Below are positions 11,878 to 16,551 of a stretch of 44,198 bases of DNA, in pieces (position 1 is the first letter of the stretch; each line of letters starts with the position of its first letter). The DNA lies in NCBI GenBank assembly GCA_947624355.1, contig CANQKI010000007.1:1-44198 (forward strand), in the 5' to 3' direction. Source of the DNA: an uncultured Clostridia bacterium. GTDB lineage: Bacteria > Bacillota > Clostridia > Christensenellales > Aristaeellaceae. Under the pieces are notes generated by a model. That model saw only the letters and a list, made by a program, of their open reading frames with translations. It was not told the DNA's origin and ran no database searches. Both the position numbers and the translations under genes were made by a program.

Positions 11878-12978
11878 CTATCTGCTCCTGTTTCCCACCA
11901 AAACCAGATAAATTCTGTGGAAGTATTTATCCAGAACAACGCTCAAAAGAAGACACAGACAGAATATGACAACCGGTATTCCGAAATACAATACGGTCTG
12001 ACACAAAGCCGTCTGCGGCAAAAGTTTCGTCAGCGCTTTTCTTAAGACTGTCTCATTGCATTCGTGAAACAGGTAAATTGAGAAGCTGTATTTTGCTACA
12101 TACATTAATCCTTTATGCATATTTCCTTCAGGTATTTTTGTGGTGAAACGGTAAAAGAAAATCAGGCCGATGAAAATTGTTATAGAATGAAACAGGTAAT
12201 GTATAGCCGCATCCTTTGTCAGGAAGTCCAGAACAATTGCGAAAATATATGCGATGATAATATAAGATCCTTTTATTTTCTCCACATCGTTGAATTTTAT
12301 TGAATATTTTACGAAATAATATCCCAGGCAAAAATAGATCAAGGCTGATTCGTTAAGAAAGAAAAGATGCGTATGAACATTCAGAATTATCATAAGCAAT
12401 AAAACGGCCAGTACCACTTTTGGAAACCTGTCTATCAATCGTTTAATAACAATCGCCAGAATATTCAGAACCATTAAATCCCTTAGAAACCATAGCTGCT
12501 GACATATGGGAAAGGGATATTGGTCATCAAGAAAACCGAGATACGCATTTGCAAATTCCGCAATACCCCAGTTGGAAATAATCTTATACCCCCGGGAAAA
12601 AAACGGGCTGAAAACCGCAAAATGCTGGGCGACAAAAAATATCAAGATCCACGCAGTGTTAAAAATAAGATATGGAATCAATAAAGATTTTAGTTTCTTT
12701 TTGATATTTTCCACCCAGGTGAATTCTTTTTTATACAGCAGTACCGCAGATATAAAGAAATATCCGGGAACTGCACAGCGGGAGATAATCTGCGAGATGA
12801 TATACTCCACGGAAGCAAGCCACAGAGGAACCTGCAAAACAACATTTTCTCCCGAAAAATGGACCTCTTCTGCGTAGGAATGAATAAAAATCACCATGAC
12901 CGTGAACCAAATTTTAAGAATCCGGATTCTTTCGGATTCTTCGGTACTGATAACGTAGCGTTTGTTTGGAGTTTCCAC
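11878..12978 (-). CDS. Membrane acyltransferase (acyltransferase 3 family)
   Basis: The 366-residue polytopic protein has about ten predicted helices and matches the acyltransferase-3 type that O-acetylates cell-surface polysaccharide, peptidoglycan or lipids. The N-terminus ERIRILKIWFTVMVIFIHSY carries the first-helix His, and AVPGYFFISAVLLYKKE with WFLRDLMVLNIL fit the family. Base composition is AT-richer than nearly everything to its left and right, suggesting acquisition. The start is GTG at 12978 with AGGGGGG 7 bases upstream. Its only visible promoter lies in a segment bounded by inverted repeats and currently points away, so I infer phase-variable expression, off in this sequence. Confidence 0.85.
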   Translation of the reverse strand: METPNKRYVISTEESERIRILKIWFTVMVIFIHSYAEEVHFSGENVVLQVPLWLASVEYIISQIISRCAVPGYFFISAVLLYKKEFTWVENIKKKLKSLLIPYLIFNTAWILIFFVAQHFAVFSPFFSRGYKIISNWGIAEFANAYLGFLDDQYPFPICQQLWFLRDLMVLNILAIVIKRLIDRFPKVVLAVLLLMIILNVHTHLFFLNESALIYFCLGYYFVKYSIKFNDVEKIKGSYIIIAYIFAIVLDFLTKDAAIHYLFHSITIFIGLIFFYRFTTKIPEGNMHKGLMYVAKYSFSIYLFHECNETVLRKALTKLLPQTALCQTVLYFGIPVVIFCLCLLLSVVLDKYFHRIYLVLVGNRSR

Positions 12979-12999
12979 AAAATTCCCCCCTGATTTTGA

Positions 13000-13150
13000 A
13001 AAAGTGTACTTTTCTGTAAGAGGAAAAAGCCACCTGCATTATTTGCTATAGAGCGAAAAAATAGTTTGCGCTAACGTTGACAACCATGCAAATTAGTGTT
13101 ATATTATGCATGGATAGGTAAGTGACAGTTTTACAGAAAAGTACACATTT
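13000..13150. promoter_or_regulatory. Invertible DNA segment with flanking recombination sites
   Basis: A 16-bp perfect inverted repeat, GTGTACTTTTCTGTAA (13004-13019) and its complement (13131-13146), bounds 111 bp. Each repeat contains a dyad around a central dinucleotide: AAAAGT-GT-ACTTTT at 13000-13013 and AAAAGT-AC-ACATTT at 13137-13150, the layout used by serine recombinases. A consensus promoter lies inside and a serine recombinase gene begins beside it. Inversion would turn the promoter toward the acyltransferase. This is a structural inference; inversion itself has not been observed. Confidence 0.8.
13077..13105 (+). promoter_or_regulatory. Consensus promoter inside the invertible segment (off orientation)
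   Basis: TTGACA, 17-bp spacer, TATATT, pointing right, antisense to the recombinase gene. After inversion it would occupy 13045-13073 on the minus strand, with a start about 60 bases before the acyltransferase GTG. Confidence 0.8.
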
Positions 13151-13168
13151 CTGTATAATCACCCCTCT

Positions 13169-13862
<694 letters not shown>

Positions 13863-13914
13863 CCTGTTTTTGTTTCCCGTTTTCCGATGATTTGCTTTCG
13901 TCCTGAAATTCTTT

Positions 13915-16551
13915 CTACAGCCGCTTTTTCTTCTGCATTTTCTCCCACAGTTCCTGGGAGGTTTTGCCCGGGTCGGATGCAGGGGCGGCGGACCGGGGTT
14001 TTTCTTTTTTGGGTTTTTTCGCCTTTACCTTGGGCTCGGCGGATTTTATCGAGGTCTTTTCCCAGGGAAGCCGCCGCTGGGCGATGTCCAATAGAAGAAT
14101 AATCAGTGCCGCCGTCAGCAGGGCGGACGTCAGGCTGCGCCTTGTGCGGGCCGCCGTTTCGGGGAAGGAAAGGAGTTCCTCCGGCGCGGTTACCGCCCGG
14201 CCTCCCGTATCCGCGCTCAGCTTCTGCAATGCCCCCGTGTCCTTTTCCCGCAGGTCGTATTCCCGGGAATAGGAGACCACTGCGCCGCCGGCCAGCCCGG
14301 CCACCGTTTCCCCGTCCTGCCGCACGGTGATTTCCACGGCGTAGGCCCCGGGGGCATCCATGTCAAGCGCCGCCTCGTACCGGGAAGGGGCCGTCCGCTC
14401 CAGAGGGATTTCCAGGGCTTCGCCCTCCGGGCCCGCTACCTGGGCCGAAACGGCGTATTCCGCCCCTGCCATTTCCTCCGGCAGGGTGTAAGTGATTTTC
14501 CCGTCCTCCGCGGTCATTTCCCCCGCCTGTTCCCGGGCGGGCAGTACGTGGGAAAGGAGGCCGCCAAAGAAAGCGGAAGCGTCGCTCCAGTTCAGGAACC
14601 CTTCGCTCCAGCCGCCCTCCACGTCGCTCATCCAGCACAGCACCCGCCCCGCGCCGTACTGCCACCAGGCCAGGATGGGGTCCTCCCGGTCGCTCACCAG
14701 GGACACGGTGGCCAGGGGCTTTTCGCTGGCCGCCAGATAGCCCGTCAGTTGGGGAAAACCTGGAAAATCCGTCAGGCTTTCGTCCGTGACGACGGGGGTA
14801 AAGACCCGGTTCTGCACGTAGGAGCCCGAAATCAGCATGGTTTCCTTGGTGAAAATTTTGGGCACGTTATCGAATTCCCCTGCGGCATAGGCCCGGCCGC
14901 CGCCAAGCTCCGCCAGGCGCATCATGGTGCGCACGTCCGCCCCGCTGCCCACGGCCACCGCCGTCAACGTAATGCCGTTTTCCCGCATGTCCTCCACGAT
15001 CTGGTCGTATCCCTGATCCCCGGATTCGCCGTCCGTCAGGAAAATCACATGCTTGTGGGGAGCGGAAACAGCTTTCAGGGCCTCCAGCCCCATGAGCAGG
15101 GGCGTGTAAAAGGCCGTGCCGCCGCCCGGGCGGATGGTGCCGATCTGGGCCTGGATGGCGGCAATATCCGTCACCTTCGTCATAGGCTGTACCCACTTGC
15201 CCTCGTCGTCAAAGGCGATGACGCCGATGCTGTCCTGCTCGGTGAGCACTTCCGCCGCCCGGCAGGCGGCCTCCTTGGCCACTTCCAGCCGCGTCACGCC
15301 GTACTGCCCCGCCGTCATGGAGCCCGATTTGTCGATAATGAGCAGCAGGGCGGTGGCGGGCAATTCCATTTTGTTTTTCACGTCAATGGTGACGGGCAGC
15401 ATGGTTTCCAGGGTGCTGCCCCGATAGCCCCCCAGGGCGTAGCTCTGGTCGCCGCCGAAAACGGCCACGCCCCGGCCCAGCTCCTTCGCCGCCGTATCCA
15501 GGGCGGCCATCTGTTTTTCCGTCAGGGAATCGGCGTCCACGTTCACCAGGGCCACGGCGTGCCAGGCTCGGTAATCCGCCGCGTTTTCGGGCAATGCGCC
15601 CGGGGCGGCCGTTTCCACCGTCATGCCCGCCGCTTCCAGCATTTTTTTGAGTTCCCGGCCCGCGCCGCTCTTTCCCTCGGCAACCAGCACGGCGGGCGCG
15701 CCCGTCACGGCCACGCAGGCCCCCATCCGGTCGTTCCGGGGCTGGCTGTCCCCGGGCAGCAGCACCTGGGCCTCATAGGTCATCACCCCGGCGTGATCGG
15801 CGGTATCCTGGAAAACGAAGGTGTTTTCCCCCCGGCGCAGGGTCACGTCCCGGCTGCCCGCCGCCGCGTGGTTTTTGTACAGCACGATCCGGGCGTCCCC
15901 CTCCCCCGTGCTGTTCACCGTCACGGTGACGGGGAAGGCCTGGCCCTCATAGGCCGAAGCGGTGGCCTGCACCCGGGTCACCTGGGCGTCCCGCCCGGCG
16001 GCGCTTTCCGCAGTCAAAGTATTGACCGGAATGCCCCGGTCCCGGAGCAGGGCCGCGTCCGCACCCTCCACCAGTCCGTCGCTGATAATGGCAATCCCCC
16101 CGGCGCAGTCCTCGGGCAGCAGCGCCCCGGCCAGCAGCAGGGCCTGCCGCAGGTCGCTGCCGTTGGGGTCGATCGCCGTCTGCACCCCGGCAAAAGCGGG
16201 ATCTTCGGACAGGGGCGTTTCCACCATGGCCCCGTTGCCGAAAGCGATCACCCCGGCCAGCCGGCCGTCCTCCAGGTTGTCCAGGGCCTGCCGGGCCAGA
16301 GCGTCCAGGTTCAGCCCCGAAGCGGAGGCCGACGCGTCCACCAGCAGCCAGGCCGCTTTTTGCCCTGCCGGACCGGGCACGCTGACCCCCGCCAGGCACA
16401 GGGCCAGGAGGGCAATCGATACCTGCCGCAGGGCATGGGAAACCCGGGCCTTCTTCGTGCGGGAAGGCCATTTTTTCGCCATCAGGAAAACCAGCAGGCC
16501 GCACACCGGCCACAGAAGCAGCAGCAAGGGCCGCGCCACATCAAAGAACAC
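13915..16551 (-). CDS. Membrane protein with VWA domain, last gene of the MoxR operon
   Basis: The 878-residue protein has two N-terminal membrane segments (about 7-24 and 42-58) and one near 785-805, with a long lysine-rich cytoplasmic tail (SIKSAEPKVKAKKPKKEK). A VWA domain with an intact metal site (DKSGSM, 407-412; LTDGESG later) is preceded by a degenerate VWA-like segment (LLVDASASAS, near 70-78) and a stretch around 285-390 (VLVAEGKSGAG, VAVFGGDQSYALGGY) resembling the glutamine-amidotransferase-like domains of related proteins. Such proteins accompany MoxR ATPases and DUF58 proteins, a group linked to envelope stress or protein complex assembly. It overlaps the preceding gene by 11 bp. 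The precise role is unknown. Confidence 0.8.
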   Translation of the reverse strand: MFFDVARPLLLLLWPVCGLLVFLMAKKWPSRTKKARVSHALRQVSIALLALCLAGVSVPGPAGQKAAWLLVDASASASGLNLDALARQALDNLEDGRLAGVIAFGNGAMVETPLSEDPAFAGVQTAIDPNGSDLRQALLLAGALLPEDCAGGIAIISDGLVEGADAALLRDRGIPVNTLTAESAAGRDAQVTRVQATASAYEGQAFPVTVTVNSTGEGDARIVLYKNHAAAGSRDVTLRRGENTFVFQDTADHAGVMTYEAQVLLPGDSQPRNDRMGACVAVTGAPAVLVAEGKSGAGRELKKMLEAAGMTVETAAPGALPENAADYRAWHAVALVNVDADSLTEKQMAALDTAAKELGRGVAVFGGDQSYALGGYRGSTLETMLPVTIDVKNKMELPATALLLIIDKSGSMTAGQYGVTRLEVAKEAACRAAEVLTEQDSIGVIAFDDEGKWVQPMTKVTDIAAIQAQIGTIRPGGGTAFYTPLLMGLEALKAVSAPHKHVIFLTDGESGDQGYDQIVEDMRENGITLTAVAVGSGADVRTMMRLAELGGGRAYAAGEFDNVPKIFTKETMLISGSYVQNRVFTPVVTDESLTDFPGFPQLTGYLAASEKPLATVSLVSDREDPILAWWQYGAGRVLCWMSDVEGGWSEGFLNWSDASAFFGGLLSHVLPAREQAGEMTAEDGKITYTLPEEMAGAEYAVSAQVAGPEGEALEIPLERTAPSRYEAALDMDAPGAYAVEITVRQDGETVAGLAGGAVVSYSREYDLREKDTGALQKLSADTGGRAVTAPEELLSFPETAARTRRSLTSALLTAALIILLLDIAQRRLPWEKTSIKSAEPKVKAKKPKKEKPRSAAPASDPGKTSQELWEKMQKKKRL

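Follow-up and report, generated by a model that had tools for sequence, protein, structure and literature searches.

Known recombinase switches and the locus in the window

Invertases of the Hin/Gin type, such as that of the Salmonella flagellar switch, are small serine recombinases that invert promoters between inverted dyad sites, and the sites of Hin are dyads with a non-palindromic 2-bp core. The Sin and gamma-delta resolvases use a directly repeated, multi-site res, with deletion as the outcome. Hin inverts about 1 kb, as described in PMC12529663, and is regulated by a Fis-bound enhancer, as described in PMC3798978. Mpi of Bacteroides, a serine recombinase acting on invertible promoters of surface genes, is described as serving at least 13 regions (PMC5903667). 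PinQ of E. coli, whose inversion alters phage sensitivity, inverts 1.8 kb, yields a chimeric protein and affects phage adsorption according to PMC12529663; the same source describes recombinases as often adjoining anti-phage genes, with a role in phage defence that is unknown. Among Clostridia, short invertible regulatory segments have been described as the RecV switches of C. difficile and in the hCom2 catalogue of invertons. Where the invertases are described, RecV, like the Clostridia-linked invertase group, is a tyrosine recombinase (PMC5903667; PMC11892184), and the word "serine" occurs 0 times in the main text of PMC11892184. As these sources present the field, promoter switches of serine recombinases are already known, and so are short invertible segments of Clostridia, with tyrosine recombinases.

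We analysed a stretch of 44,198 nucleotides from an uncultured Clostridia bacterium, here called the window, in which a small serine recombinase gene and an acyltransferase gene lie on either side of a short segment bounded by inverted sites. Judged from sequence comparisons, this locus is very probably a phase-variation promoter switch flipped by the adjoining recombinase. A first-pass annotation had read it as a promoter flip-switch, and that reading is supported by the conservation of the sites, loop and promoter, by the occurrence of both orientations among relatives and by helical phasing. The locus resembles Hin/Gin in its small serine recombinase, in the predicted inversion of a promoter and in inverted dyad sites with a non-palindromic 2-bp core, but here the recombinase lies outside a 137-bp segment and is nearer in sequence to Sin. 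Unlike Mpi with its many regions, each recombinase here seems to own its switch, and the window recombinase scores 49 bits against the NCBIfam Mpi model (NF009949), which has a cut-off of 272. PinQ is likewise a small serine recombinase, whereas here a promoter would flip ahead of defence or surface genes. The arrangement of the Sin and gamma-delta resolvases was considered and rejected, because the locus has one inverted pair, downstream of the gene.

Organization of the locus

The perfect 16-bp inverted repeat around 111 bp that the first-pass annotation described was found at 13004-13019 and 13131-13146, and reaches 20 nt at 95% identity if extended. It is the longest perfect inverted repeat of the window at spacings of 20-400 nt, the runner-up being 12 bp, and the 16-mer has two exact matches in the 2.81-Mb assembly, both in the repeat pair. 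At five places with partial matches elsewhere in the genome, which were read or scanned for repeats, no matching pair was found. Each repeat belongs to a 24-bp imperfect dyad centred on GT/AC, again as the annotation had it. The left crossover site (12995..13018, + strand) consists of TTTGAAAAAGTG followed by TACTTTTCTGTA, with the core GT at 13006-13007, and the right crossover site (13132..13155, 24 bp), which lies 13 nt past the recombinase stop, reads TACAGAAATGTG followed by TACTTTTCTGTA on the - strand, with its core at 13143-13144. The putatively invertible segment between the crossover centres (13007..13143) measures 137 bp, or 13 helical turns at 10.5 bp. The flipped contig was not found in the 2.81-Mb assembly, where one orientation is present, and the exact loop pattern had 0 matches in viral contigs.

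The two flanking genes, both on the - strand, are those that had been named. The recombinase (13169..13774, 201 aa from a probable ATC start at 13774-13772) matches PF00239 (E 3e-28) over model positions 1-144 of 145, and with a length of about 200 aa it is a small serine recombinase. The AT3-family acyltransferase (11878..12978; PF01757, E 7e-30) is 366 aa long with a GTG start, has seven TM-like segments that exceed the hydropathy cut-off, and is the predicted target of the switch.

Within the segment lies the anticipated TTGACA-17-TATATT promoter, at 13077..13105 on the + strand, with 11/12 consensus matches and a TG ahead of the -10. It points right, antisense to the recombinase, and faces the recombinase 3' end (the OFF orientation), with its -10 ending 38 nt from the distal crossover centre. 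Promoter-like matches numbered four in 4.5 kb as compared with 3.0 expected, so that a lone match is not rare. Inverting 13007-13143 in silico left both 24-mers unaltered and brought the -10 to 66 nt, and the expected transcription start to about 59 nt, before the acyltransferase GTG, in line with the roughly 60 bases estimated earlier. A promoter ahead of a gene, enclosed by inverted repeats, gives the locus the layout of an inverton. The promoter scan listed no match on the - strand from 12284 to 15500, which bears out the statement that the acyltransferase has no other visible promoter; the terminator scan listed none between recombinase and acyltransferase, and with no terminator listed there, readthrough from the one into the other may occur. 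A second promoter-like match, TTTACA-18-TATAAT (13130-13159, 11/12), is formed by the right repeat plus its fixed flank and also points right, antisense to the recombinase.

Conservation of the sites and promoter among relatives

A scan of species genomes yielded at least 552 encoding relatives among at least 597 matched stretches, from which the 80 best were retained. When searched with a consensus derived from these same sites, 61 of the 80 best homologues, and the window too, showed an inverted 24-bp pair behind the recombinase. The gap between the recombinase match and the start of site 1 is 13-25 nt in 61 of these 62 loci and 36 nt in one, and at each of positions 10-14 of site 1 (GTGTA) at least 60 of 62 carry the consensus base; the outer half of the distal site is less conserved across the recombinase family. 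No pair was detected in 19 of the 80 homologues, 13 of which had enough DNA to show one; six of the 19 are on contigs that stop before the second site, and four of those six show the first site. Of 151 distinct loci searched without a consensus, 74 had a pair that scored no lower than the 99th percentile of 290 shuffles; at least three of the 74 (L052, L118 and the hairpin contig L088) are not real site pairs, and some of the pairs found with the consensus score under this bar.

The best promoter score was at least 9.75 in 79% of 61 loops (L088 excluded) versus 4% of 1,220 shuffled loops, and in 55 of the 61 the distance from the end of the -10 to the distal crossover centre is 37-42 bp. At this conserved place the promoter points toward the recombinase in 47 loops, toward the next gene in 11 and is unclear in three, these orientations in assemblies being majority states. 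The 11 of 58 toward the next gene correspond to a two-sided binomial p of 2e-6, in a test that treats the loci as independent, which is not quite true. An earlier scan without the place rule had given 41, 14 and 7 of 62.

Both orientations among relatives

Twenty-six pairs of loops are at least 70% identical, and seven of them align better when one loop is reverse-complemented, with identities of 0.72-0.98 inverted versus 0.54-0.62 the other way. The inverted comparisons are L070/L087, L049 with L068, L073 and L088, L019/L027, L045/L055, and L062/L090; because L049 takes part in three of the seven, once against the hairpin contig L088, they amount to five independent comparisons. The loops of L070 and L087 are 98% identical inverted, with flanks of 100% and 95%, and L049 inverted is 88% identical to L073 and 85% to L068, with flanks of 89-94%. 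In the weaker inverted pairs (0.80, 0.73 and 0.72) the flanks are less certain, the downstream DNA differing in L062/L090 (0.59) and being short or different in L019/L027 (0.35). When L049 is compared with L068 and L073, and L070 with L087, the inner half-sites are swapped and the outer half-sites remain with the flanks. Since the inner half-sites travel with the loop and the outer ones stay, the crossover is placed within the GTGTAC core.

Contig L088 folds back through the segment with 60-bp arms, an assembly oddity that needs a flipped junction. In 9 of 80 loci the contig ends no more than 250 bp past the recombinase match on the downstream side, where the next 2,750 bp would lead one to expect 0.9; on the upstream side 1 of 80 ends within the same distance (Fisher p 0.018). 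Because two of these nine contigs stop just short of the first site and one is pairless, we take this excess as supporting evidence only. The inversions between relatives could be old events, and by analogy with these relatives flipping probably takes place in this organism. Looking in relatives for the same gene pair with the segment reversed, as the first-pass annotation had suggested, returned none in a DNA search of 300 genomes of the family. Outside the window's own genome this search matched almost only the C-terminal part of the recombinase, and no other of these genomes has the window's acyltransferase with this switch at the DNA level.

Helical phasing of the sites

Switch sites lie about 105-230 bp apart across loci. 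In 86 loci, which form 31 loop clusters (one of them chaining 39 loops at a loose 66% identity), the centre-to-centre distances gather near 105, 115, 137, 147, 168 and 209. At a period of 10.5 bp the phasing R is 0.66, and it peaks at 0.69 with a period of 10.3 bp; 0 of 5000 jittered sets reached either value. The spacing classes 121-124, 154-156, 186-187 and 229 fit multiples of 10.5 bp more poorly. The site spacing follows the DNA helix. Since the distance from promoter to distal site is nearly fixed and loop length varies, turns are added behind the promoter. Such close, phased sites point to synapsis in which the loop would be tightly bent, possibly with the help of HU, and the phasing makes it possible to test cleanly how a serine recombinase brings together sites 10-22 turns apart.

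Genes behind the switches and their spread

In the available DNA, 57 of the 61 switch-bearing relatives have an open reading frame behind the switch; in 44 of the 57 the first one is same-strand and begins no more than 150 nt from site 2, and in eight it lies on the opposite strand. Forty of the 57 first genes were scanned against Pfam, and 10 first plus 8 second genes against PADLOC. Clear defence genes were found behind the switch in 9 of 40, with two further weak cases (L053 and L096). Defence genes in this position include MmeI-type genes (L038, L040), BrxA and then BrxC of a BREX system (L042), an HKD plus Snf2 helicase gene (L049), a type II/IIG methyltransferase as second gene (L051), cytosine methylases (L057 and L080, in L080 followed by a restriction enzyme) and type II methyltransferases (L087, L093). 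Acyltransferases lie behind the switch in L029, L032 and L069 and SLH or LRR surface proteins in L030, L047, L062 and L074, and the remaining first genes are mixed or without a family. Since the loci were picked by recombinase similarity, these counts do not represent a sample of all genomes. Two candidates for a close relative of the window acyltransferase were rejected, namely the L029 gene, the one other PF01757 gene seen behind a switch (BLASTP E 0.09, with the Pfam family alone in common), and the family-less gene of L027.

On a tree of 122 recombinases, labels for the partner gene need at least five changes, as counted on hand-picked labelled rows with no shuffle control, and we give this count no weight. 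In the window's family, 60 of 308 genomes have recombinase homologues at E<=1e-50, as do 51 of 391 in its class, and 12 of 29 genomes from its genus have matches at E 1e-3, the window's own genome being included in each count; some distant homologues have no detectable site pair. The switch, the recombinase end and 300 bp downstream are identical in L071 (Ruminococcus turbiniformis) and L072 (Lactonifactor longoviformis), and such identity across two genera suggests recent transfer.

Start codon of the recombinase

An SD sequence, AAGGAGG, lies at 13783-13789 of the window and is followed 8 nt later by an ATC in frame with the conserved YGYIRVS motif. The sole in-frame upstream ATG, GTG or TTG in the window is an ATG 21 codons before YGYIRVS; this codon, the start of the longest recombinase ORF, is at 13828, inside a terminator-like hairpin (13819..13862, - strand) that has a 14-bp perfect stem and a 12-nt loop, followed by the T-run in which the ATG lies. 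The hairpin is the probable terminator of an upstream VWA gene, and is absent from the terminator scan, which had a loop limit of 8. On these signals, the window recombinase likely starts at the ATC at 13774-13772.

With the stricter placing, ATC or ATA stands three codons ahead of the motif in 23 of 142 loci, eight of which are without an in-frame ATG, GTG or TTG. A wider rule applied to 145 loci gave 99 with ATG, GTG or TTG at an SD, 34 in which only a non-canonical codon stands at an SD (ATC in 25, ATT in 5 and ATA in 4) and 12 undecided; eight of the 34 have a canonical codon without an SD within 10 codons. All but one of the 34, the window included, fall among the 84 closer loci (at least 70% identity). 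In 14 of the 145 loci there is an upstream in-frame stop with no ATG, GTG or TTG in between, two of these (L148 and L175) being near-copies and two resting on ATT with 10-nt spacing. Relatives with an apparent AUC start (AUA or AUU in some) include L018, L022, L025, L033, L041, L043 and L146. In 16 hand-picked ATC/ATA loci compared pairwise, the nucleotide identity upstream of the SD is 0.27; past the start it is 0.88/0.91/0.64 by codon position. Because one of the search peptides, AEKEDGNI, spans the start region, the sampling favours non-AUG loci, and frameshifting may operate instead of a non-AUG start. On the 122-recombinase tree the start-codon labels need 12 changes, six of them forced by starred branches; shuffled labels need 30 on average, and 0 of 500 shuffles were as low as 12. 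A paralogue on contig C98 of the same genome starts with ATG, so that a non-AUG start would be a trait of the gene and not of the genome. Starts at AUC, AUA and AUU are inefficient, and the non-AUG start, if real, would be an instance of a start codon retained because it limits the supply of an enzyme that rearranges DNA. Among the papers listed in the literature searches, which covered neither bioRxiv preprints nor Jiang et al. 2019, no report of an AUC-started invertase was found, nor of a recurrent non-AUG start.

Proposed mechanism and alternative readings

In the mechanism that we propose, the recombinase (13169-13774) would bind the two 24-bp dyads as dimers, pair the sites by looping about 13 helical turns of DNA, and cut at the central GT/AC, after which rejoining would invert 13007-13143. 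In the assembled orientation the promoter would face away from the acyltransferase (OFF) and give an RNA antisense to the 3' end of the recombinase; in the inverted state (ON), transcription from it would begin about 59 nt upstream of the GTG of the acyltransferase. The AUC start codon would probably keep the recombinase scarce. Antisense RNA made only in OFF would explain the 47:11 OFF excess in assemblies, since ON would relieve the antisense RNA and so speed the return to OFF. Transcription, low recombinase expression from AUC, the antisense feedback and the effect on acylation are all what we infer from the DNA.

Sin resolvase is the closest solved relative of the recombinase (2r0q, E 3e-26), and in an Enterococcus plasmid homologue with 52% identity a palindromic GTATAC site lies upstream, with no clear pair downstream, both of which fit a reading of the repeats as res-like sites for repression or resolution, with no inversion and with the promoter as an antisense regulator of the recombinase. 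We hold this to be very unlikely, given that the two sites stand in inverted orientation and share one non-palindromic GT core, and that loops occur in both orientations with half-sites exchanged. It is also unlikely that a once-active switch is now locked in this strain, with the acyltransferase silent or expressed by readthrough. The single orientation in the assembly and a weak left outer half-site (TTTGAAAA vs TACAGGAA) point that way, but the inner half-sites of the window's pair are perfect, the recombinase frame is open, and the distal outer half is less conserved throughout the family anyway. Because promoter-like matches are about as common as expected, the whole arrangement might be a chance repeat beside an unrelated promoter; to this we give next to no weight, since none of 60 Markov-1 random windows contained a repeat longer than 15 bp, the longest measuring 12-15 bp in 55 of them and less than 12 bp in five, and since the site pair is conserved in 61 of the 80 best homologues.

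Returning to the promoter switch, we tentatively propose, with a confidence just short of even, that such loci form a gene-swapping class of self-contained Clostridia phase switches, in which one recombinase, with its own helically phased flipper, has spread to positions before anti-phage or surface genes and is throttled by a recurrent AUC, AUA or AUU start and by an antisense RNA made in OFF only. Among the papers listed in the literature searches, no report was found of this serine family as a gene-swapping switch before defence genes, or of its helical phasing. If the proposal is true, a recombinase next to defence genes would in many cases serve to turn them on and off, and would not be prophage debris. 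For part of those recombinases it would give a testable answer, namely promoter switches before BREX, restriction-modification and surface-modification genes, with costly defence on in only some cells.

Related recombinase loci

The homologues on an Enterococcus plasmid and on two phage contigs showed no convincing downstream pair. On the Enterococcus faecalis plasmid (L201), a perfect 24-bp palindrome, TTTCAAAAAGTATACTTTTTGAAA, lies at 2350-2373, about 120 bp upstream of the recombinase gene, and resembles a resolvase site. The paralogue in the genome of the window (L013, G000:C98; recombinase at about 290-917, - strand, 56% identical) has its own, different inverted repeat, AAAGTAGACTTT, at 151-278, 114 bp centre to centre. 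By eye, no clear promoter is seen at the conserved place in this paralogue, and the gene that follows its repeat begins like a secreted protein, the contig ending 150 bp beyond. Past the recombinase stop of L081 there is a single degenerate site (GTGTGG) with no partner, which is perhaps the scar of a lost switch; L083, whose recombinase is identical to that of L081 over the compared columns, has a pair.
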